A stretch of 64,000 bases of DNA from positions 124,001 to 188,000 of the forward strand of contig NZ_MPOB01000004.1 in the NCBI RefSeq assembly GCF_002148795.1, written 5' to 3'. The translations under genes and the position numbers were made by a program. The notes beneath the pieces were generated by a model. It was not told the origin of the DNA. It worked only from the letters and a program-made list of their open reading frames with translations, and made no database searches. Shown in pieces: positions 38,490-48,408 of this stretch; position 1 is the first letter of the stretch; each line of letters opens with the position of its first letter. Source of the stretch: Oceanibaculum nanhaiense (GTDB lineage: Bacteria > Pseudomonadota > Alphaproteobacteria > Oceanibaculales > Oceanibaculaceae).

Positions 38490-39395
38490 ATGTCGATGCC
38501 CGCTATTGCCCGCTATTTGCCGCTTGCGACAAAGATCGCGCTGCTCGTCTGCCTGGCGGTTCTGCCGGGCGAGGCGGCGGCCGAATCCGTGCTCGACCGG
38601 GCGGAACGCACCGGCGTGCTGAACGCCGGAACGCGCGACCATATCCGGCCTTTCGCCTTCCGGCAGGAGGATGGCAGCTTCATCGGCTTCTCGGTCGATA
38701 TCATCCGCCATATCCATGCCGCGCTGGAGGCGAAGCTTGGCCGCAAGATCGAACTGCGGCTGGAGGAGGTCGATTCGCAAACCCGGATCGACCGGGTCGC
38801 CGACGGCACGCTCGACTTCACCTGCGATATTGCCAGCAAGACCTGGGTGCGCGACCGGCTGATCGATTACAGCCTGACGATATTTTTCAACGGCACGCGC
38901 ATCCTGACCGAACGACAGATCGGGCTGGAGGGGCTCGGCGGGCTGGAAGGCAAGAAGATCGGCGTGATCGCCAACAGCGCCACCATTTCCGTGCTGCGCC
39001 GTGGCCTGCCGGCATCGGAACTGGCCGAGTTTCCCTCGATGAATGCGGCGATGGCGGCGCTGGAGGCGGGCGAGGTCTCCGGCATCTCCAACATCTCCAT
39101 CGTGCTGCGCGATCTGCAACGCCAGGCGGCGCAGCCGGGGCGCTACATCATCCTGCCGCGTGCCGGCTATCTGAACGCGGAGCCGATGGCCTGCATCCTG
39201 CCGCAGGACGATTCGCGCTGGCGCGATTTCGTCAATCACACGCTGGTGCGCCTGCTGAAAGGCATCGAGGAATATCGCGGCCCCTATTTCGAGACCTACC
39301 AGAAATGGTTCGGCCCGAACGGCGATCTGCACTATCCGCTGAACCGCGACGCCATCAATCACTTCAACCAGATTCGAGGCTGGATCGATGATTGA
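38490..39395 (+). CDS. Amino-acid ABC transporter substrate-binding protein
   Basis: 301 aa with a signal peptide (YLPLATKIALLVCLAVLPGEAAA reads as the core helix and cleavage region). The mature part is a polar amino-acid binding fold of the HisJ/GlnH type: VLNAGTRDHIRPFAF, GFSVDIIRHIHAALEAKLG, DSQTRIDRVADGTLDFTC. The last eight bases overlap the next gene, which carries its own binding domain fused to a permease. Two binding domains thus serve one transporter. ATG 38490 or 38496 are both possible. Confidence 0.88.
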   Translation: MSMPAIARYLPLATKIALLVCLAVLPGEAAAESVLDRAERTGVLNAGTRDHIRPFAFRQEDGSFIGFSVDIIRHIHAALEAKLGRKIELRLEEVDSQTRIDRVADGTLDFTCDIASKTWVRDRLIDYSLTIFFNGTRILTERQIGLEGLGGLEGKKIGVIANSATISVLRRGLPASELAEFPSMNAAMAALEAGEVSGISNISIVLRDLQRQAAQPGRYIILPRAGYLNAEPMACILPQDDSRWRDFVNHTLVRLLKGIEEYRGPYFETYQKWFGPNGDLHYPLNRDAINHFNQIRGWIDD

Positions 39396-41076
39396 TCCGG
39401 TCGGCGGGAAGTTCGGCCGCCTGTTTTCCTGCCTGCTGGCGCTTGTCGCCCTGATCTCGGCCCTCACCTCGGCCATGACCGGGCCGGCGCTGGCTGCCGA
39501 CGACATCGACGAGCTGCGCGCCAAGGGCCATGTCGTGATTGCCGTGAAGGCGGATTATCCGCCCTGGGGTTTCCGCGACCCGCAGGGGCAACTGATCGGC
39601 ATGGAGATCGACCTGGCCGAGGACATTGCCCGGCGCATCGGCGTGCCGGCGCGTATCGTCGCCGTGCAGTCCGCCAACCGGCTGGAGGTGCTGCGTCAGC
39701 ACCAGGCCGATATCGTGATCGCCACCATGGGCGACAATACGAGCCGGCGGCGGATCATCGGCATGGTGGAGCCGCACTACTACGCGTCCGGCGTCAATCT
39801 GCTGTCGCGCAAGGAGCTGCGGATCGAGCGTTGGGAGGACCTGCGCGGCATGCCGGTCTGCGCCAAGCAGGGTGCCTATTTCAACAAGTCGGTGGCGCGC
39901 CGCTACAATCTCGACCTGCGCATCTTCAAGGAAACCCGCGAGGCGAAACTGGCGCTGCGTGACCGGCGTTGCGTCGGTTTCCTGTTCGACGATTCCGCCA
40001 TCGCCGCCGATCTGCTGCAGCCGGAATGGCGGGGCTACACCATGCCGCTGCCGACGCTGGACGAGGCCGGCTGGGCCATCGGGCTGCGCCAGCAGGCGAT
40101 GGGCGGCGATCTGGACCGGCTGCTGTCCGATGCCGTGGCGGATTGGCATCGAAGCGGGCTGTTGCTGGAGCTGGAGGAGAAGTGGGGCATCAAGCGGACC
40201 GGCTTCTTGGTCGGAATGAACCGGCTGTGGAGTGCGCGCGACAGCGCTGGCGACTTCCTGTGCCGGCGCGGGCCGGACGATAAATTCCCCGATGAGTGCC
40301 GGCCAACCCGGGTCGAGGCGCAGCAGGCCGCGCCGCGTCAGCCGGGCGCGCTGGAGGTCTGGTTGAAATCGGCGGGGATCAATCTCTCGATTCTCTATGA
40401 TCCCTATGACCGCGCCCAGTTCCTGCGCGGCCTCGTCAACACCATCCTGCTGGCGCTCGGCTGTATCGTGCTCAGCGTCGTCATCGGCATCACCGGCGCC
40501 TGGCTGCTGGGTGTCGGCTTCGCGCCGGTGCGCTGGCTGGCGACCGGCTATGTCGAGTTCTTCCGCTACACGCCGCCGCTGGTGCAGCTCTATTTCTTCT
40601 TCTTCGGGATCGGCGCCATGTTGCCGCTGGTCACCGCGGCGAACGGCGTGGAAACGCCGCTGATGGGCGGCTTTGCCTGGGCGGTGATCGCGCTCGGTGT
40701 CTATGCCGGTGCCTCCAACACGGTGATTTTCCGCACCGGCATCGACGCGGTGCCGATGGATATCCGCGATTCCGCCGCCGCTTTGGGCTATGGCCCCTTG
40801 CAGGCCTATGTGCGGATCATCCTGCCGCTGGCGCTGCGCAACTGCCTGGCGGCACTGAACGCCAATCTGGTGAATATCGTGAAGGCAACCGGCTTGGCCT
40901 CGGCCATCGCCGTGCCGGAATTGCTGTACGTCACCAATCAAATCTGGCCGGAGGAGGGCAACACGGTCGAGATGATGAACGTGCTGCTGGTGATCTTCTT
41001 CCTGCTGGTCTCGGTGCTGGTCTATGGCATGCACCGGCTGGAGAAGCGATTGCGGATTCCGGGGCAGGGGGCCTGA
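39388..41076 (+). CDS. Substrate-binding/permease fusion of amino-acid ABC importer
   Basis: 562 aa. A signal anchor (LLALVALISALTSAMTGPAL) is followed by a HisJ-type binding domain (residues ~40-275: VVIAVKADYPPWGFRDPQGQ; IVIATMGDNTSRRRIIGM). A short linker leads to a HisM/GlnP-like permease with about five helices (LVNTILLALGCIVLSVVIGI; VEFFRYTPPLVQLYFFFFGI; the EAA loop DSAAALGYGPLQAYVRIILP). Such fusions are known in the polar amino-acid uptake family, where a membrane-bound binding domain feeds its own channel. It overlaps the upstream binding protein and is followed by a second permease 7 bases on. Confidence 0.9.
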   Translation: MIDPVGGKFGRLFSCLLALVALISALTSAMTGPALAADDIDELRAKGHVVIAVKADYPPWGFRDPQGQLIGMEIDLAEDIARRIGVPARIVAVQSANRLEVLRQHQADIVIATMGDNTSRRRIIGMVEPHYYASGVNLLSRKELRIERWEDLRGMPVCAKQGAYFNKSVARRYNLDLRIFKETREAKLALRDRRCVGFLFDDSAIAADLLQPEWRGYTMPLPTLDEAGWAIGLRQQAMGGDLDRLLSDAVADWHRSGLLLELEEKWGIKRTGFLVGMNRLWSARDSAGDFLCRRGPDDKFPDECRPTRVEAQQAAPRQPGALEVWLKSAGINLSILYDPYDRAQFLRGLVNTILLALGCIVLSVVIGITGAWLLGVGFAPVRWLATGYVEFFRYTPPLVQLYFFFFGIGAMLPLVTAANGVETPLMGGFAWAVIALGVYAGASNTVIFRTGIDAVPMDIRDSAAALGYGPLQAYVRIILPLALRNCLAALNANLVNIVKATGLASAIAVPELLYVTNQIWPEEGNTVEMMNVLLVIFFLLVSVLVYGMHRLEKRLRIPGQGA

Positions 41077-41083
41077 GCGCGGC

Positions 41084-41761
41084 ATGGGCACGATTCTGGA
41101 AACCCTGATCGTCTGGACGCCGGCGCTGGCCGAAGGCTTCCTGATGAACATCATCATCAGCATCGGTGCGATGAGTATCGGCACCGTGCTGGGCATGCTG
41201 GTCGGGCTGGGCCGCAACTCGACGCGGCAATGGCTGCGCCGCTCCTGCTGGGGTGTGACGCAATTCCTGCGCAACACGCCGTCGCTGGTGCTGCTGTTCT
41301 ATCTCGCCTACATGCTGCCCTATGAGATTCATGTGGCCGGCATGACGATCCCGCTGCCGGGCTGGCTGAAGGCGGTGGTCGGGCTGTCGATGCCGGTGAT
41401 CGGCTTCATGTCGGACAATGTCTATGGCGCCGTGCGCAACATCCACGCCGATCAATGGGACGCGGCGGCGGCGCTGCCGCTCAGCCGCTACCAGACGATG
41501 AGTTCGGTGATCCTGCCGCAGGCGACGCCGATGCTGCTGCCACCCTGGATGAGCTATTTCGCGGTCATCGTCATGGCCTCCTCCACGGCCTCCATGGTGG
41601 GGGTGAAGGAGATATTGTCGAGCGCCACCGTGGCGATGGAATCGGTCAGCGATCCGGCGCTGATCATCCCGATGTATTTCTACGTGCTGTGCTGGTTCTT
41701 CGTATTCTGCTACCCGTTCTCGCACATCACGCGCTGGCTCGAGAAACGGCAGTGGCGTTAG
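41084..41761 (+). CDS. Amino-acid ABC transporter permease
   Basis: 225 aa, five membrane helices, HisM/GlnP type. The EAA loop is DAAAALPLSRYQTMSSVILP, and FLRNTPSLVLLFYLAYMLPY is typical of polar amino-acid permeases. It pairs with the fused permease to form the heterodimeric channel. ATG 41084 is 7 bases after the preceding stop. It ends six bases before the convergent DUF3108 gene. The matching ATPase is not in this operon but on the opposite strand at 43081-43800. Confidence 0.9.
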   Translation: MGTILETLIVWTPALAEGFLMNIIISIGAMSIGTVLGMLVGLGRNSTRQWLRRSCWGVTQFLRNTPSLVLLFYLAYMLPYEIHVAGMTIPLPGWLKAVVGLSMPVIGFMSDNVYGAVRNIHADQWDAAAALPLSRYQTMSSVILPQATPMLLPPWMSYFAVIVMASSTASMVGVKEILSSATVAMESVSDPALIIPMYFYVLCWFFVFCYPFSHITRWLEKRQWR

Positions 41762-41767
41762 GGCGCG

Positions 41768-42565
41768 TTACGGCGTCACGTCGAGGCGGGTGAGGTAGGC
41801 CAGCACCCAGCCCAGGGAATGTTCCGCCTCGAAGCGCACGGGCACCCACAGATCGGTCCCCTCGGGCTTGGCGAACCAGACATGCGAGGGGGGCATCGGC
41901 TCGCTGCTGGTGCGCCAGCGGGTGCCGGTATAGCGGCCGGCGATGCTGTCGTAATGCACCCGGCACTTGATGGCGGGGCCGGCATAGACGCCATGCCGCC
42001 CGGCGGGCAGGTTTTCTTCGGCAAGCCGTTCGAAGCGCAGATTGTAGCGCCGCCGCCCGTCGAACACCGGCACTGTCCAGTCGCAGGCTCCGGCCTGTGC
42101 ATAGGCCGGCTGGTTGACGAACAGGATGGCGCTCAGGGGATCGACCGTGCCGCGCCACAGCGGTTCGGGCACTGGCTCGCGGTCCGACGGGTCCTCGACC
42201 GGCTCGACCGTCACATCGACCGGGCCCTGTGCGCCATAGCGCATTTCGATGCGCCGGGTATCGCCGCGCCAGATGCCCCTGTTCAGATGGGTGGTTGGCT
42301 GCAACTCCCCGTCGGCGATGCGTCCCTCGGACAGGGTATGCTGGGAGAAGCCCGAAACCCAGCCGACGAAGCCGCGGCTGTCGAGCTGGGTCTCAAGATT
42401 ATAACCATCCGGTTTCAGGCTGGTCCGGCTGTCGATGGTCAGTACGTGGAAACCGCCGGCAAAAACATCGACGCCGATAGAAATCTCGCGGGGCTGTTCC
42501 AGCGGCGCGGCGAGGGCGGGCGCGGCCAGCAGGAAGGCGGCGAAGCCAGGGATAAGCGGGCGCAT
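41768..42565 (-). CDS. DUF3108 periplasmic protein
   Basis: 265 aa. A signal peptide (PLIPGFAAFLLAAPALA) is followed by a beta-rich domain with SIGVDVFAGGFHVLTIDS, DSRGFVGWVSGFSQHTLSEG and FNLRFERLAEENLP-like sequence (here YNLRFERLAEEN), which identify DUF3108, a probable outer-membrane-associated lipid-binding or calycin-like family of unknown role. It is the last gene of the minus-strand signalling cluster, 80 bases after the RsbW-like gene. ATG 42565 gives the signal peptide. Confidence 0.83.
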   Translation of the reverse strand: MRPLIPGFAAFLLAAPALAAPLEQPREISIGVDVFAGGFHVLTIDSRTSLKPDGYNLETQLDSRGFVGWVSGFSQHTLSEGRIADGELQPTTHLNRGIWRGDTRRIEMRYGAQGPVDVTVEPVEDPSDREPVPEPLWRGTVDPLSAILFVNQPAYAQAGACDWTVPVFDGRRRYNLRFERLAEENLPAGRHGVYAGPAIKCRVHYDSIAGRYTGTRWRTSSEPMPPSHVWFAKPEGTDLWVPVRFEAEHSLGWVLAYLTRLDVTP

Positions 42566-42645
42566 GGGGCAAATCTCCGTTCCCGCTAGATATCGGGCGG
42601 TCCGGCGCGACTTCAAGCGGCAGGTTTTGCCTGCCCGTGCTTCTG

Positions 42646-43074
42646 CTATTCCGCCGGCTGTCGCCGCTTGATGCAGGTCAGCCGGTTTTCCCCCTCCCGC
42701 CGTTCGTAGACGACCTCGTCCATCATGGCTTCCACCAGATGCAGGCCGAGACCGCCAATCGGCCGATCCTCGACATCGCCCTCCAGCGTTGGCGCGGGCG
42801 CTTGCGCGAGCGGATCGAAGGCGATGCCATCGTCACGCACGATCAGCATGACGCGGTCGCTGTCGATGGAGACCTCCACCGTCACTTTCCCGCTGCCGCC
42901 ATCCGGATAGCCGTAGGAGATCGCGTTGGTCACCAGCTCGTCGATGGCGAGTTCCAGCGCATAGGCGATTTCGGGGGCGAGGCCGTTCTCTTCGATAAGT
43001 CCGGTGACCGCGGCGACGATCTCCGGGATGGCCTCCCGGTCGTTCGCGACGGAGATTTCCAACCGGGCCGCCAC
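42646..43074 (-). CDS. RsbW/SpoIIAB-type anti-sigma factor serine kinase
   Basis: 142 aa GHKL ATPase. The N box is LELAIDELVTNAISYGY (Glu46 and Asn50 match the catalytic base and Mg ligand of SpoIIAB), the G1 box is VRDDGIAFDPL, and the G2 box is IGGLGLHLVEAMMDEVVY. It is predicted to phosphorylate the STAS protein encoded at 46676. GTG 43074 is used as start, 6 bases behind the ABC ATPase stop. No sigma factor is adjacent, so the downstream target is unknown. Confidence 0.9.
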   Translation of the reverse strand: MAARLEISVANDREAIPEIVAAVTGLIEENGLAPEIAYALELAIDELVTNAISYGYPDGGSGKVTVEVSIDSDRVMLIVRDDGIAFDPLAQAPAPTLEGDVEDRPIGGLGLHLVEAMMDEVVYERREGENRLTCIKRRQPAE

Positions 43075-43080
43075 GGCGCG

Positions 43081-43800
43081 TTACGGTCCCGTCGCCGGAG
43101 GAGGCTGCAACGGTGCGAGCCGGCCCCGGTCCAGCTGCGCCAGCAGATCGGCGCACAGGGTGGCGAAACGCATGTCATGGCTCGATGCCAGGATGGTCAT
43201 GCCCGCCGCCGCCATCTGACGGATCAGCTCCGCCACCTTGTCCACCATGCGCGGATCGAGGGCGGCCGTCACCTCGTCCAGCAGCAGGATTTTCGGATTC
43301 ATGGTCAGGGCACGCACCAGCGCCACCCGTTGTTGCTGGCCGGCCGACAATTCGCCGGGATAGCGGTCGCGCAACTCCGCCACTTCCAGCCGGGCGAGCA
43401 GGTCGATGGCCTGCTCCTCGGCCTCCGCGCGCGGCCGGCGGAGCACCTGGCGCGGCCCCATAGTCAGGTTTTCCAGCACGCTCTTGTGCGGAAACAGGCT
43501 GTAGCGCTGGAACACCATGCCGACATACCGGCGCAGCGCCTGCAGGTCGGTGCCGGGCTGCGTCACCGTGAACGGGCCGACCTGGATATGCCCCTGATCG
43601 GCGGGGGTGAGCGCATTGACCAGACGCAGCAGCGTGGTCTTGCCGGTGCCCGACGGGCCGGCGATGCACACCACCTGGCCCGGTAACACGGTGAAGGAGA
43701 CCGCATCCAGCACGGGCGTCTCGTCGAACCGCTTGCTGACAGACTCGAAGCGGAGTGCAGCTGCCGTCACAGGTTCCGTTGCCAAGACTGCTTCCCTCAT
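43081..43800 (-). CDS. ABC transporter ATPase, polar amino-acid type
   Basis: 239 aa. Walker A GPSGTGKTTLLRLVNALT, Q-loop MVFQRYSLFPHKSVLEN, signature LSAGQQQRVALVRAL, Walker B ILLLDEVTAALDP and the H-loop SSHDM are all intact. It is of the HisP/GlnQ group and is the only ATPase in the window that fits the amino-acid permeases at 39388-41761. The start is ATG 43800 (TGATG with the methyltransferase stop) or GTG 43803. It is encoded between a methyltransferase and an anti-sigma kinase, an odd place for a transporter ATPase. Confidence 0.92.
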   Translation of the reverse strand: MREAVLATEPVTAAALRFESVSKRFDETPVLDAVSFTVLPGQVVCIAGPSGTGKTTLLRLVNALTPADQGHIQVGPFTVTQPGTDLQALRRYVGMVFQRYSLFPHKSVLENLTMGPRQVLRRPRAEAEEQAIDLLARLEVAELRDRYPGELSAGQQQRVALVRALTMNPKILLLDEVTAALDPRMVDKVAELIRQMAAAGMTILASSHDMRFATLCADLLAQLDRGRLAPLQPPPATGP

Positions 43801-44627
43801 CACCCTGTTCCTGCCGTCGCCAGAATGCCATAGCCGAGGCCCGCCGGGGTTACCGGCCGTATCAGCCTGTCGAGCGCGGCCAGCGTGCCGGAGCGGGTAA
43901 CGCCGGATTCCGGCCAGACGCTCTCCGCCTGCAGCCTGATGCCCTTGAAGCCGGCATCGCGCAATTCGCCGGTCAGCATCTCCGGGCTGTACAGATGATA
44001 GAACAGCTCGATCTGCTCGCCCCCATGCTGGCGGCTGTAGAGAATATCGCCTTCCTCGCGGGCGGGCGGGCGCGGCGTGCCGGCTGCCAGGGCCGCCCGA
44101 TGCTCCTGCTGTTCCGCCCGGAACCGCCGCGCGGCGTTGGGCACGCTGACCACCAGATGTCCGGCGCCGTCCCGCGTCAACAACTGGTGAATGCGGCGCA
44201 GCGTCGCCACCCGGTTGGCCCGGCCCGGAATATGCCCCAGCACACCGAACATGATGAGCGCCAGATCGACCGGCGCGCCGCCGGTATAATCCTCGCGCGG
44301 CCCGAGGATCGCCTGCACCCGGTCGCGCCCTGGCTCGCCGGCGATGCGGCGTTCCAGGCTGGTGAGTGCCACCGGGCAGATGTCGTAGGCAAATATCCGC
44401 GCCGCGGTGGTGTGTAGCAGAGGCAGGACATAGCGCCCGTCGCCGCAGCCGAAATCCAGGATGGCGCGGGCATCCCTGCCAACCTTCAGGATGGTCGCCA
44501 GGCTCTGCGCATTGTGGCGGGGATAGCGCTGGTCGTAGAAGCCGCTGGCGAAATAGCGCTCATAGGCCCGCGCGATGGTCGCCACCTCACTGTCGGTCGG
44601 GTTTTGTATGGCCGCAAGGTCACTCAT
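43800..44627 (-). CDS. Class I SAM-dependent methyltransferase in the signalling operon
   Basis: 275 aa. Motif I is AILDFGCGDGRYVLPLL near residue 57, followed by the acidic loop FAYDICPVALTSLERRI and LALIMFGVLGHIPGRANRVA. It belongs to the methyltransferase-11/25 group; its substrate is unknown. It lies between the SpoIIE-type phosphatase (32 bases upstream) and the ABC ATPase (overlapping start), so it is clearly part of the same transcript. A role in modifying a signalling or envelope component is possible but not shown. Confidence 0.85.
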   Translation of the reverse strand: MSDLAAIQNPTDSEVATIARAYERYFASGFYDQRYPRHNAQSLATILKVGRDARAILDFGCGDGRYVLPLLHTTAARIFAYDICPVALTSLERRIAGEPGRDRVQAILGPREDYTGGAPVDLALIMFGVLGHIPGRANRVATLRRIHQLLTRDGAGHLVVSVPNAARRFRAEQQEHRAALAAGTPRPPAREEGDILYSRQHGGEQIELFYHLYSPEMLTGELRDAGFKGIRLQAESVWPESGVTRSGTLAALDRLIRPVTPAGLGYGILATAGTG

Positions 44628-44658
44628 ACGGTCAGTCTTTTCTCGTCTGCGGGGTCAA

Positions 44659-46626
44659 TCATGTCAGCCCGTTTCCCCCATGCCCGGCATAACGCAGCGC
44701 CAGGCATGTCAGGTCGTCGGATTGCGGCGCGGTGTCGCTGAAGCTGTCCACACTGTCCACCACGCGCTGTGCGAGCGCCTCGATGGCAAGGGAATGGCTG
44801 CCCTGCAGGGCAGCTTCCAGCCGGGTCTCGCCATATTCCTGGTTGGCAGGGTCGAAGGCCTCGGTCACGCCATCGGTGAACAGGAACAGCGAATCGCCGG
44901 GGCGCAGGGTCACGCTCTTTTCCGCGTAGGGCAGCTCGTCCAGGATACCCAGCGCCATGCCGCCGGTGGTTTCCAGCGCCGTCACCATGCCGTCGGCGCC
45001 GATCAGATAGGGCGGGTTGTGCCCGCCATTGGCAAAGCGGAATTCGCCGGTGCGGGCATCCAGAATGCCGTAGAACACGGTGACGAACAGTTCCAGCGGG
45101 TTTTCCTGGCACACCAGATCGTTGGCGCGGGCGAGGCAGTCGCCCGGTCCGTCCGCTTCCCGCGCGACGCTCTGGATGACGGTGCGCGACACCGCCATGA
45201 AGAAGGCCGCCGGCACGCCCTTGCCGGACACGTCGGCCATGACCACGGCGATCCGGTCCTCGTCCAGCATGAAATAATCGTAGAAATCGCCGCCGACATG
45301 GCGTGCCGCCTGCATCATCGCATAGCCGGTGAAGCGCGGATCCTGCGGGAAGGCCGCCGGCAGGATGGCGGTCTGCATCGCCTGGGCGAGGGTGAGTTCC
45401 TGATTGATCTGCGCGTTCGCGGCCTCCAGCTGCTCGTTCTTCTGTTCCAGCTGAAGGGTGCGTTCCTTCACCAGCGCGTCCAGCTCATCCTGGCGGGCGA
45501 AGACCTGCTTGGCCATCGCCTCGAACACGCGGGCGAGGTTGCCGAACTCGTCACGCCGGGCCGCCACGGCCTGCAGCTGGCCGCGGACATAGCGCTGCTG
45601 CTCCACCGCCTGGGCCGCCTCGCCGATACTGTAGAGCGGGCGGGTCAGCCGGTGCGAGAACCAGGTTGCCGTCAGCAGGCTGGCGGCCAGCACCAGCCCG
45701 GCGACGATAGCGGTATAGATCAGGCTGGACTGCATCAGCTTCTGCAACCCGTCAGTCGGCAGGCGCAGCAGAGTGGCGCCGATCGGGCCGCCATCGGGCC
45801 CGGGAATCGGGGTCACGACAACCATGTCGCGCCCGGCCAGCCAGCTTGCCGTGCTGCCGGTGCGGATGCTGTCGTCCAGCGCCTCCTGCTCCCGGCTGTC
45901 CGGCGGCTGGTTCACCTCCTCGCCGAAGACCGTGCCCTGGGCGAGCGGCTGGAACTGGTAGTCGAACACCCAGATCGCGTTCACGCGGCCGCTGTCCAGC
46001 AGGCTGCGCACCACCTGCACGAGGCCGATCCGGTCCACGATCCCGCCAATGAAGTCAAAATCATAGCCGACAAGCGCCGCCCCCGGCGTGCTGACGCCGC
46101 GCACGCCGGCATATTTGAAGCGCCTTCCATCGAGATCGCGGTCGATTCCGGGACCGACGACGGAGAATTTCTCGCCGGAGAGCAGATGCCAGAAGCGTGA
46201 CAGGACCGGGCTGCGCTCCGGATCGGGGAAGATCTGCAGGCTGACATCCGGCAGGCTGCCATAGGTCGTAGTACCGCTGCCGTCGAAGCCCCAGATTTCC
46301 GAGATTTCGCTCCGCGCCGTGATCTCCATCAGCCGGGCATTGACCTCCTCGACAGAGATACCGGCCTGCTCCGCGATGTCGAACAGATGCGCGGTCAGCA
46401 GCGCCTCGGAGACCATCTGCCGGCCGATCACCTGCTCGATTTCCGCCGGCACCGTGTTGGCGACGGAGGCCGCCTGCGCCAGCACGCGGGCGATGCGCGT
46501 GCCGTCGGATTCCGCCTGCAGCAGGATCGCGTTGCGCGCCTGCCAGCCGAGCGAGACCGCCAGTCCAAGGATGGCGGCGCTCAGCAACCCGACGATCAGC
46601 AGGAGAAGACGGAACTTCAACGACAT
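44659..46626 (-). CDS. SpoIIE/RsbU-type PP2C phosphatase with sensor and HAMP domains
   Basis: 655 aa. TM1 is at residues ~5-25. A periplasmic sensor of about 270 residues follows, then TM2 (AIVAGLVLAASLLTATWF), HAMP, and a coiled coil (LVKERTLQLEQKNEQLEAAN). The C-terminal PP2C domain has RHVGGDFYDYFMLDED, VVMADVSGKGVPAAFFMAVS, NGGHNPPYL, LFLFTDGVTEAFDP and SDDLTCLAL, with all metal-site Asp intact. It is predicted to sense an external signal and dephosphorylate the STAS protein at 46676, opposing the RsbW-type kinase. The sensor's ligand is unknown; an amino-acid link is suggested by the ATPase in the same operon. Confidence 0.92.
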   Translation of the reverse strand: MSLKFRLLLLIVGLLSAAILGLAVSLGWQARNAILLQAESDGTRIARVLAQAASVANTVPAEIEQVIGRQMVSEALLTAHLFDIAEQAGISVEEVNARLMEITARSEISEIWGFDGSGTTTYGSLPDVSLQIFPDPERSPVLSRFWHLLSGEKFSVVGPGIDRDLDGRRFKYAGVRGVSTPGAALVGYDFDFIGGIVDRIGLVQVVRSLLDSGRVNAIWVFDYQFQPLAQGTVFGEEVNQPPDSREQEALDDSIRTGSTASWLAGRDMVVVTPIPGPDGGPIGATLLRLPTDGLQKLMQSSLIYTAIVAGLVLAASLLTATWFSHRLTRPLYSIGEAAQAVEQQRYVRGQLQAVAARRDEFGNLARVFEAMAKQVFARQDELDALVKERTLQLEQKNEQLEAANAQINQELTLAQAMQTAILPAAFPQDPRFTGYAMMQAARHVGGDFYDYFMLDEDRIAVVMADVSGKGVPAAFFMAVSRTVIQSVAREADGPGDCLARANDLVCQENPLELFVTVFYGILDARTGEFRFANGGHNPPYLIGADGMVTALETTGGMALGILDELPYAEKSVTLRPGDSLFLFTDGVTEAFDPANQEYGETRLEAALQGSHSLAIEALAQRVVDSVDSFSDTAPQSDDLTCLALRYAGHGGNGLT

Positions 46627-46675
46627 GCGAATGGGATATGCGGTGCGAGAAAAGGGCGGGCCGGGGGAATCCCGG

Positions 46676-47011
46676 CTACTTGCTGCCGGCCAAGGCGGCG
46701 CCGCTGTCCGGATATATCGTGAAGATCGCCAGAAAACCGCTGATTTCGAAGACTTTGGCGATATTGTCGTTGAGCGCGCACAGGCAGAGCCGGCCCTTGC
46801 CGGCCTTCACCCGCTTTGCCGCCATCAGCATGACGCGCAGGCCGGCACTGGAGATGAATTCCAGGGCCTCAAAATCGATCACTACGTCGTTCCGGCCGTT
46901 TTCGATTTTTCCGATGATGTGCCGTTCGAACTCCGGCGCTGTCGTGCTGTCCAGCCTGCCGGATATTGCCACGACCAGCGTGTTGCCGTGATCGCTTTCC
47001 TTGATTTCCAT
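46676..47011 (-). CDS. STAS-domain anti-sigma factor antagonist
   Basis: 111 aa. SpoIIAA/RsbV-type fold with VVAISGRLDSTTAPEFERH and the phosphorylation site FISSAGLRVMLMA (Ser55 is the expected acceptor). It ends with KVFEISGFLAIFTIY. It should be phosphorylated by the kinase at 42646 and dephosphorylated by the phosphatase that follows. First gene of the STAS-phosphatase-methyltransferase-ATPase-kinase run; the 278 bases before it hold nothing but a probable promoter. Confidence 0.92.
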   Translation of the reverse strand: MEIKESDHGNTLVVAISGRLDSTTAPEFERHIIGKIENGRNDVVIDFEALEFISSAGLRVMLMAAKRVKAGKGRLCLCALNDNIAKVFEISGFLAIFTIYPDSGAALAGSK

Positions 47012-47289
47012 AACCCTCTACCGATTGATTGCAGTTGGGTGCTTCCGCTTGGGCGCCCGCCTGTTCAGGCGCTTTCCCGGAGATTTGAACTCAAAGCTAG
47101 CATATCCGGCTTAACCGTAGGAACCGCCATTGCTGCCGTCGGGGACCGGGATCATCGTGAAAAATCCGATAGCATCGTTGTGGCTTTCACCTTCCAGACC
47201 ATGCCCATCAACCGTTCTGCGGGCGGCTCTAGAGGCGACAAGGACGTGCCCTTCATGGACTAGGGACGTTTCTATGCGCGGCGGCCGGT

Positions 47290-48408
47290 TTACGACGGGA
47301 TGATCTGGACGAGCGGCTTTTCGAAATCAGCGGTGATCGCTTCGAGCAGGGCCAGCTTTTCGGTGACAGGCGGTTCGGCGCCGTCACGGCAACGGCTCCG
47401 TGCTTTTGTCTGCAGGCCATAGACCCGCTGCATGCCCTGCTCATAGATACCGCTGGCCTTTGCCTGCCCACCCTGACGGGCAAGCCCGCGCAGCAACCGC
47501 AATGTCATGCCGGCATGCGTCGAGAATATCCGGAACGTGTCCGCGCTGACCTTCGGGGTATCGATTCCACGCTCCAGGGCGCGCAGATAGTAGGACAGCA
47601 GCGCGCCAAGGTCGGCCAGATTGGCGATGGCGATCTGTTCGCCGAGCGACAGGATGAAGGGGTGCGCGGCCCCCTTGTTTTTCTCTTCCTTCGTGGATTC
47701 CAGGACGCGCAGCACCGCGACGATCAGATCCTCGACATACAGCAGCACGGCCGAGACATCGAAATGCCGCACCATGTCGCTATCCGAGAGGAAGCCTTGG
47801 ATGGTGCGGCTGACCGAGCGCACGATACTGCGGGCGAGGCGTGCCGAAGCGGCCTGCAACTCCGCCATCTTCTGGCCCTGGCCTAAGCCTTCCAGCAGCC
47901 AGGTAGTGGCGTCGAGCTGCAGGATCAGCGCGCCGGCCTGCGGCATTTCCGCATAGTCCGCCTTGTCCAGCCGCTGGATGAAGGCGGCGGTCTGCTGCTG
48001 CATGTCGGTGAAGAGCTGGTCGGCGAGGCGCTGGCGGAAGCGCTGTATCTCGAAACCGGATTCCGAGCGCGCCTCCCAGGCGGCGAGGGCATTCAGCAGC
48101 TCGACCAGATCGAGCAGGTTTGCCGGCCCGCCAGTGACGTCGCGCCGCGGCAATCTCTGTTCGATGGCCGGAAGGATCTTCGTCGTCAGCAGCTTGTGAA
48201 AATCCTGCGCATTGCCGTCGACGCCGACGATTCCGGACACCTTGTCCAGCGCGCGGATCGTGTTGCAGATATGGGCATGTTCCTGCAATTCGGCGATCAG
48301 GTCGGGCAGGTTGGAGTCCGCGCTATCTTGCAGAAACAGGGACAGCGTATCGGCCAGACTGTCGTGCAAGACCGTCAATCTTTGCGTCCTTGCCGAAAGC
48401 TTCGCCAT
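47290..48408 (-). CDS. Hypothetical helical protein upstream of the STAS gene
   Basis: 372 aa, not recognised. It is soluble and all-helical by eye, with no signal or membrane segment. Segments such as NLPDLIAELQEHAHICNTIR, LLDLVELLNALAAWEARSES and DVSAVLLYVEDLIVAVLRVL suggest a helical bundle or repeat. There are no catalytic motifs. It lies on the same strand as the signalling operon but 278 bases apart, so a shared transcript is uncertain. It may be a local scaffold or regulator, by position only. Confidence 0.65.
   Translation of the reverse strand: MAKLSARTQRLTVLHDSLADTLSLFLQDSADSNLPDLIAELQEHAHICNTIRALDKVSGIVGVDGNAQDFHKLLTTKILPAIEQRLPRRDVTGGPANLLDLVELLNALAAWEARSESGFEIQRFRQRLADQLFTDMQQQTAAFIQRLDKADYAEMPQAGALILQLDATTWLLEGLGQGQKMAELQAASARLARSIVRSVSRTIQGFLSDSDMVRHFDVSAVLLYVEDLIVAVLRVLESTKEEKNKGAAHPFILSLGEQIAIANLADLGALLSYYLRALERGIDTPKVSADTFRIFSTHAGMTLRLLRGLARQGGQAKASGIYEQGMQRVYGLQTKARSRCRDGAEPPVTEKLALLEAITADFEKPLVQIIPS

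Follow-up and report, generated by a model that had tools for sequence, protein, structure and literature searches.

Why should the parts of an amino-acid importer be encoded among those of a partner-switching signalling module? The question is raised by a locus of Oceanibaculum nanhaiense, found at positions 38,490 to 48,408 of the 64,000-nucleotide (nt) stretch of contig NZ_MPOB01000004.1 that we analysed, hereafter the window. Genes for a SpoIIE-type phosphatase, a STAS protein and an RsbW-type kinase are found there with those of an ATP-binding cassette (ABC) importer. We conclude that this is probably a partner switch with the amino-acid ABC importer as its ligand-sensing input. With less assurance, sequence comparison inclines us towards a broader reading, a receptor family descended from amino-acid importers of the type I ABC kind. 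Its members would have kept the binding protein and permeases and lost the ATPase and coupling loops. They would pass their signal through the membrane straight to SpoIIE and to an RsbW-type kinase, the latter fused in one genus, with Oceanibaculum as the ATPase-bearing intermediate.

A partner switch and an importer at one locus

Coordinates of the open reading frames (ORFs) were re-checked and their products scanned with Pfam and NCBIfam profiles. The five minus-strand ORFs and the converging permeases and binding proteins described in a sequence-only reading of this DNA were all recovered in place, with domains far above cut-off. The minus-strand run starts with a STAS-only protein, an RsbV-type substrate (46676..47011; Pfam STAS 78.6 bits; TIGR00377 87.1 bits, cut-off 53.45), whose candidate phospho-acceptor serine lies within FISSAGLR. 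It continues with a membrane SpoIIE/PP2C phosphatase (44659..46626; Pfam SpoIIE 178 bits), a class I S-adenosylmethionine methyltransferase (43800..44627; Pfam Methyltransf_23/12/25), a GlnQ/HisP-type importer ATPase (43081..43803; profile matches, catalytic motifs kept) and an RsbW-type kinase or anti-sigma-like protein (42646..43074; HATPase_c_2 96.9 bits). Successive gaps are 49, 31, -4 and 6 nt.

Converging on this run is a plus-strand block of three genes. The first encodes SBP1, a periplasmic family 3 solute-binding protein (SBP) by Pfam (38490..39395), whose closest solved structure is the periplasmic binding protein 2ia4/2vha. The second is an SBP-permease fusion (39388..41076; Pfam SBP_bac_3 and BPD_transp_1) with an intact EAA coupling loop. 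The third is another permease, permease 2 (ORF 41024..41761; Pfam BPD_transp_1 67 bits), with a likelier start at 41084 by comparison with O. pacificum (L025) and a related metagenome-assembled genome (L024). The window holds every part of a polar amino acid transport (PAAT) importer, namely SBP_bac_3, two BPD_transp_1 permeases and a GlnQ-type ATPase.

As for the signalling genes, the phosphatase, the STAS protein and the HATPase_c_2 kinase are encoded together, as in an RsbUVW-type module. The kinase appears to be a relative of sigma-B RsbW and not RsbW itself, because both equivalog scores are under cut-off (NF003144, 61 of 145 bits; TIGR01924, 55.5 of 155 bits). No sigma-factor gene was evident among the called flanking genes, by inspection only and with no sigma-factor profile used. 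Hydropathy and Pfam give the phosphatase a transmembrane segment (7-25), an extracytoplasmic part of about 275 residues, a second transmembrane segment (302-320), a HAMP domain and SpoIIE (455-646), the HAMP match being slightly below its own cut-off. The predicted structure of the extracytoplasmic part, made from three sequences, had a mean pLDDT (predicted local distance difference test) of 54 and was not used.

The locus seems to be the only obvious partner switch of this genome, since a profile search found one strong RsbW-type match, the kinase of the window, and there is one stand-alone STAS protein. The other two STAS matches sit in ORFs of 585 and 587 amino acids.

Linkage across genera

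Searching the SBP1 profile (A1) against 385 genomes of the class gave matches only in the four Oceanibaculum genomes and in G150, G171, G262 and G290. Targeted searches around these added 10 relatives, two in g43, one in g144 and seven in g224 genomes. No additional member was found in 16 genomes from the order of G262, nor in a phylum-wide draw of 398 genomes, and a plasmid collection searched with SBP1 gave relatives at 30-33% only. The total is 18 genomes in five genera and five alphaproteobacterial families, four of these genera being beyond Oceanibaculum.

SBP1 adjoins the SBP-permease and permease 2 in 17 loci. SpoIIE is present in all 16 linked loci with a long enough contig, and its orthologues were aligned (A2). 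Not every relative of the SBP-permease belongs to this set, as most are ordinary importers. A control of 38 loci of such ordinary relatives, mostly with flanks of up to 10 kb, gave no SpoIIE, RsbW or STAS match in the fetched DNA (0/38). The proposed link between uptake and signalling genes is thus borne out as a conserved one, and its recurrence in five genera is much stronger evidence than the locus of the window. Flanking genes vary from lineage to lineage, and the link between importer and switch is older than the layout seen in the window.

Could these simply be unrelated genes that came to lie side by side? The layout seen in the window does vary even within its own genus, as a chance neighbourhood would. 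However, the same gene set recurs in five genera with different flanks, against none of the ordinary importers, and chance is a highly improbable explanation.

Two SBP1 genes have no permeases (L094 and L096). The one at L096:9896-11575 (G428) is a second SBP1 paralogue, with a GPP34-domain gene as neighbour and, truncated at the end of the contig, a response-regulator-like ORF. Among other neighbours, L022:2290-7913 (G262) has a one-strand run of RsbW, STAS, a GPP34-domain protein, an ammonium transporter, a second STAS and a type III glutamine synthetase, up to SBP1. From these nitrogen genes one may guess at a signal to do with amino acids or nitrogen in G262; the neighbours differ in other lineages. 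In g43 (L084:1267-4269 and L085:14847-19899), the STAS gene lies tail to tail with SpoIIE; next come genes for a xanthine/uracil-type permease and a carbonic anhydrase.

Loss of the ATPase and the coupling loops

In the four genera other than Oceanibaculum, no cognate ATPase was found at the locus, the nearby ATPase genes belonging to other transporters. These had been considered as partners and were rejected. Judged by gene order and sequence starts, they sit in gene sets of polyamine type (L020, L086), zinc type (g224) and molybdate type (L085), with approximately 30-38% identity.

In type I importer permeases, the EAA loop is cytoplasmic and holds the coupling helix on which the ATPase docks. 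We aligned permease 2 to the solved importer permease 4yms. Loop length was taken as the number of residues between fixed alignment columns. The loop of permease 2 has 42 residues in 4/4 Oceanibaculum and 36/36 ordinary importers, and 22 in 11/11 ATPase-less loci, that is, 20 fewer; L022 agrees by a separate spacer count. In the fusion permease the loop is 48 residues long in 4/4 Oceanibaculum and 38/38 ordinary importers, and 31-39 in 13/13 ATPase-less loci (9-17 shorter). Both permeases therefore have the coupling loop in Oceanibaculum and lack it in the 12-13 ATPase-less loci. Shortening of the loop in both proteins argues that the absence of the ATPase outside Oceanibaculum is a real loss.

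The ligand site follows a different course. In the ATPase-less set, the fused SBP domain retains its ligand motif, RR and D, and we take the Arg and Asp of this SBP family to grip the ligand by its carboxylate and amino group. With these residues kept while loops and ATPase are gone, the ATPase-less set would have preserved its ligand site and lost energy coupling. SBP1 has the Arg and no evident Asp, so it may bind something other than the ligand of the fused domain.

The sequence-only reading had offered the importer either as sensor input or as controlled output of the switch. The output version, an ordinary pump regulated itself or via its genes by the partner switch, for instance by RsbW acting on the adjacent ATPase, agrees with Oceanibaculum, where the ATPase has its catalytic motifs intact and adjoins RsbW, and both permeases keep their coupling loops. 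Yet the linkage holds in four genera that have neither locus ATPase nor coupling loops, which leaves no ordinary pump to control. Moreover, the ATPase signature reads LSAGQ in 4/4 Oceanibaculum and LSGGQ in ordinary relatives, a change that possibly alters the behaviour of the ATPase. We consider controlled output unlikely. Of the two options, input is the one that the ATPase-less relatives favour, and we favour it also for the system of the window, because the gene link survives the loss of the pump.

A permease fused to the kinase

A single reading frame of 384 amino acids encodes both permease 2 and RsbW at each of the three g43 loci. The 42-codon linker has no indels and no stops across the three loci, with synonymous/non-synonymous codon differences of 8/4, 12/11 and 12/11, much as in the RsbW part. 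Ahead of the kinase are five hydrophobic segments, a number that, given the usual topology, fits a cytoplasmic location of the kinase part. None of the three genomes has an RsbW-type match at E<=1e-12 besides the fusion.

It is conceivable that the ATPase-less permeases move ligand without ATP, like facilitators, and that the intracellular ligand then signals. Conservation of the membrane segments and of the SBP ligand residues would suit such a function, but the permease-RsbW fusion and the lasting link to the phosphatase are left unexplained by it, and we give it little credence.

Descent

A tree of both permease domains (48 rows, 410 columns) was restricted to columns occupied in at least 90% of rows, which excludes the deleted loops. 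It sets the signalling set apart from 32 ordinary importers (100/100), and a 100/100 branch has the ATPase-less members on one side. The simplest order suggested by these sequences goes from ordinary importer to switch-tied importer, as in Oceanibaculum, and then to ATPase-less receptor. Conversion of an importer into a receptor could thus be read stepwise, through an ordinary importer, an ATPase-bearing importer tied to the switch, an ATPase-less complex and a permease-kinase fusion.

Gene order within Oceanibaculum

In L025 and L024 the genes form a co-directional run of eight, STAS-SpoIIE-methyltransferase-SBP1-SBP-permease-permease 2-ATPase-RsbW, with gaps of -10 to +48 nt and several 4-nt overlaps. 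The window and G001 (L005, L088) have a split layout, with the SBP1/SBP-permease/permease 2 block outside the run, convergent, and beyond a DUF3108 gene (41768..42616, minus strand). This gene lies between permease 2 and RsbW and had been missing from the earlier list of genes. As the independent assembly G001 has the same split, mis-assembly is as improbable an explanation as chance.

Only the unsplit order matches ordinary importers, where permease 2 precedes the ATPase, and for this reason the unsplit order is probably the older. The split layout is a local derived rearrangement, in this species and one sister. The place of the ATPase in the signalling run would reflect removal of the other importer genes and not insertion of the ATPase. 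The sequence-only reading had seen meaning in an ATPase encoded inside the signalling operon; this finds no support, as the whole importer is in the operon in L024 and L025, and we discard the split as a functional arrangement since it is derived within the genus. On the other hand, proximity of ATPase and kinase is no peculiarity of this genome. The ATPase adjoins permeases elsewhere, as it does in L024 and L025, yet it stands beside the kinase in 4/4 Oceanibaculum.

Lastly, some neighbours can be described. Orthologues of the methyltransferase are present in the operons of L020, L022, L024, L025 and L086. G001 (L005:4461-12304) has an extra four-gene block between RsbW and DUF3108 which, from sequence starts and one ABC match, resembles a peptide secretion system (peptidase/ATPase exporter, membrane fusion and outer-membrane proteins). 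At 47290-48408 of the window, 278 nt upstream of the STAS gene, lies a gene whose 372-amino-acid product matches nothing in Pfam or NCBIfam. In L024 and L025 a 34% relative is found downstream of RsbW, on the opposite strand.

Proposed mechanism

With the importer as input, ligand-loaded SBP1, the fused SBP domain in its loaded state, or both would dock on the permease pair. Docking would cause a conformational change, to be passed to the cytoplasmic RsbW-type kinase and/or the neighbouring SpoIIE phosphatase. Phosphorylation of the STAS protein would then shift, and a target would be freed or captured. The Oceanibaculum importer retains its ATPase and may still transport, being sensor and pump at once. 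In the other alphaproteobacteria, the complex without ATPase and docking loops would serve as a receptor only, with permease and kinase joined in one genus. The direction of signalling, the physical contacts and the loss of transport are what we infer here.

Several observations weigh against this proposal. The f16 and g224 loci have no RsbW, and 2-5 RsbW-type genes are found elsewhere in those genomes; coupling to RsbW is therefore not established in every lineage. All three g43 fusions contain an internal ATG, making separate translation of RsbW possible. The system is rare, and the tree is unrooted, with no outside root and with long branches. In Oceanibaculum, the ATPase keeps the Walker A Lys, the Q-loop, the Walker B Asp-Glu and the H-loop His, and both permeases keep their loops. 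Considering these intact motifs and loops, the system of the window may be a functional importer, with the switch controlling either its activity or its expression. The extracytoplasmic part of the SpoIIE protein could also sense alone.

Two further details concern the Oceanibaculum importer. Its permease 2 has Pro in place of the usual Gly of the EAA motif. The genome of the window holds 116 ABC matches, and another ATPase encoded elsewhere may serve this importer.

Little is known of the way in which outside signals reach the membrane phosphatases and kinases of partner switches, and here a candidate input is encoded with the switch. If the proposal is true, it would allow a direct test of whether docking of a binding protein alone signals through a permease.

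Comparison with known systems

The locus shares a SpoIIE-type phosphatase, a STAS protein and an RsbW-type kinase with the RsbU/RsbV/RsbW systems, such as those of sigma-B in B. subtilis and RbaV/RbaW/RbaY in R. capsulatus. Rhodobacter capsulatus RbaVW also has no adjacent sigma gene (PMC3999984). Input to those systems comes from RsbT/stressosome, or from a REC domain on the phosphatase, as in RbaY (PMC3999984), whereas the candidate input here is an ABC importer with binding proteins, fused to the kinase in one genus. With SiaA of the Pseudomonas SiaABCD system the phosphatase shares a membrane HAMP and SpoIIE arrangement. The SiaA model NF038263 is its best NCBIfam match, but the score is far under cut-off (116.4 of 700 bits), and no cyclase gene was called at the locus.

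On the transport side, the Oceanibaculum genes share with PAAT importers (GlnHPQ, HisJQMP and the 4yms importer) a family 3 SBP, two HEQRo-type permeases and a GlnQ-type ATPase. They differ by the extra SBP1 and the linkage to SpoIIE and, outside Oceanibaculum, by the absent ATPase and deleted EAA loops.

An ABC transporter is known as the sensory partner of a histidine kinase in BceAB-BceS, where the ATPase is kept and the response is to antimicrobial peptides (PMC3023708; cited in PMC11109136). Our locus would be similar in making an ABC transporter the sensory partner of a kinase, but the transporter is an importer, it comes with RsbW, SpoIIE and STAS, and ATPase-less forms exist. The literature search, with most subscription journals outside its reach, returned no account of a permease from an ABC importer being coupled, or fused, to RsbW. 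The view that no standard description of this arrangement exists agrees with the literature searched, and an ABC importer as partner-switch input would be new, with no published precedent found.

A further parallel is the fold of S-components from energy-coupling factor (ECF) transporters, found in 5TMR receptors, some of them fused to PPM/SpoIIE domains, and called the first case of prokaryotic transceptors (PMC11109136). There, the membrane fold of a transporter is used as a receptor without its ATPase, and our ATPase-less complexes would do likewise. For our system, transporter homology and loss of coupling parts are seen in the relatives, the version of the window keeping its ATPase. The folds, however, are unrelated. 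Ours is that of type I importer permeases, which come with their binding proteins, show their homology in sequence and include an ATPase-bearing intermediate. If our reading is true, prokaryotic transceptors would extend from the unrelated S-component fold (PMC11109136) to the permeases of ABC importers.

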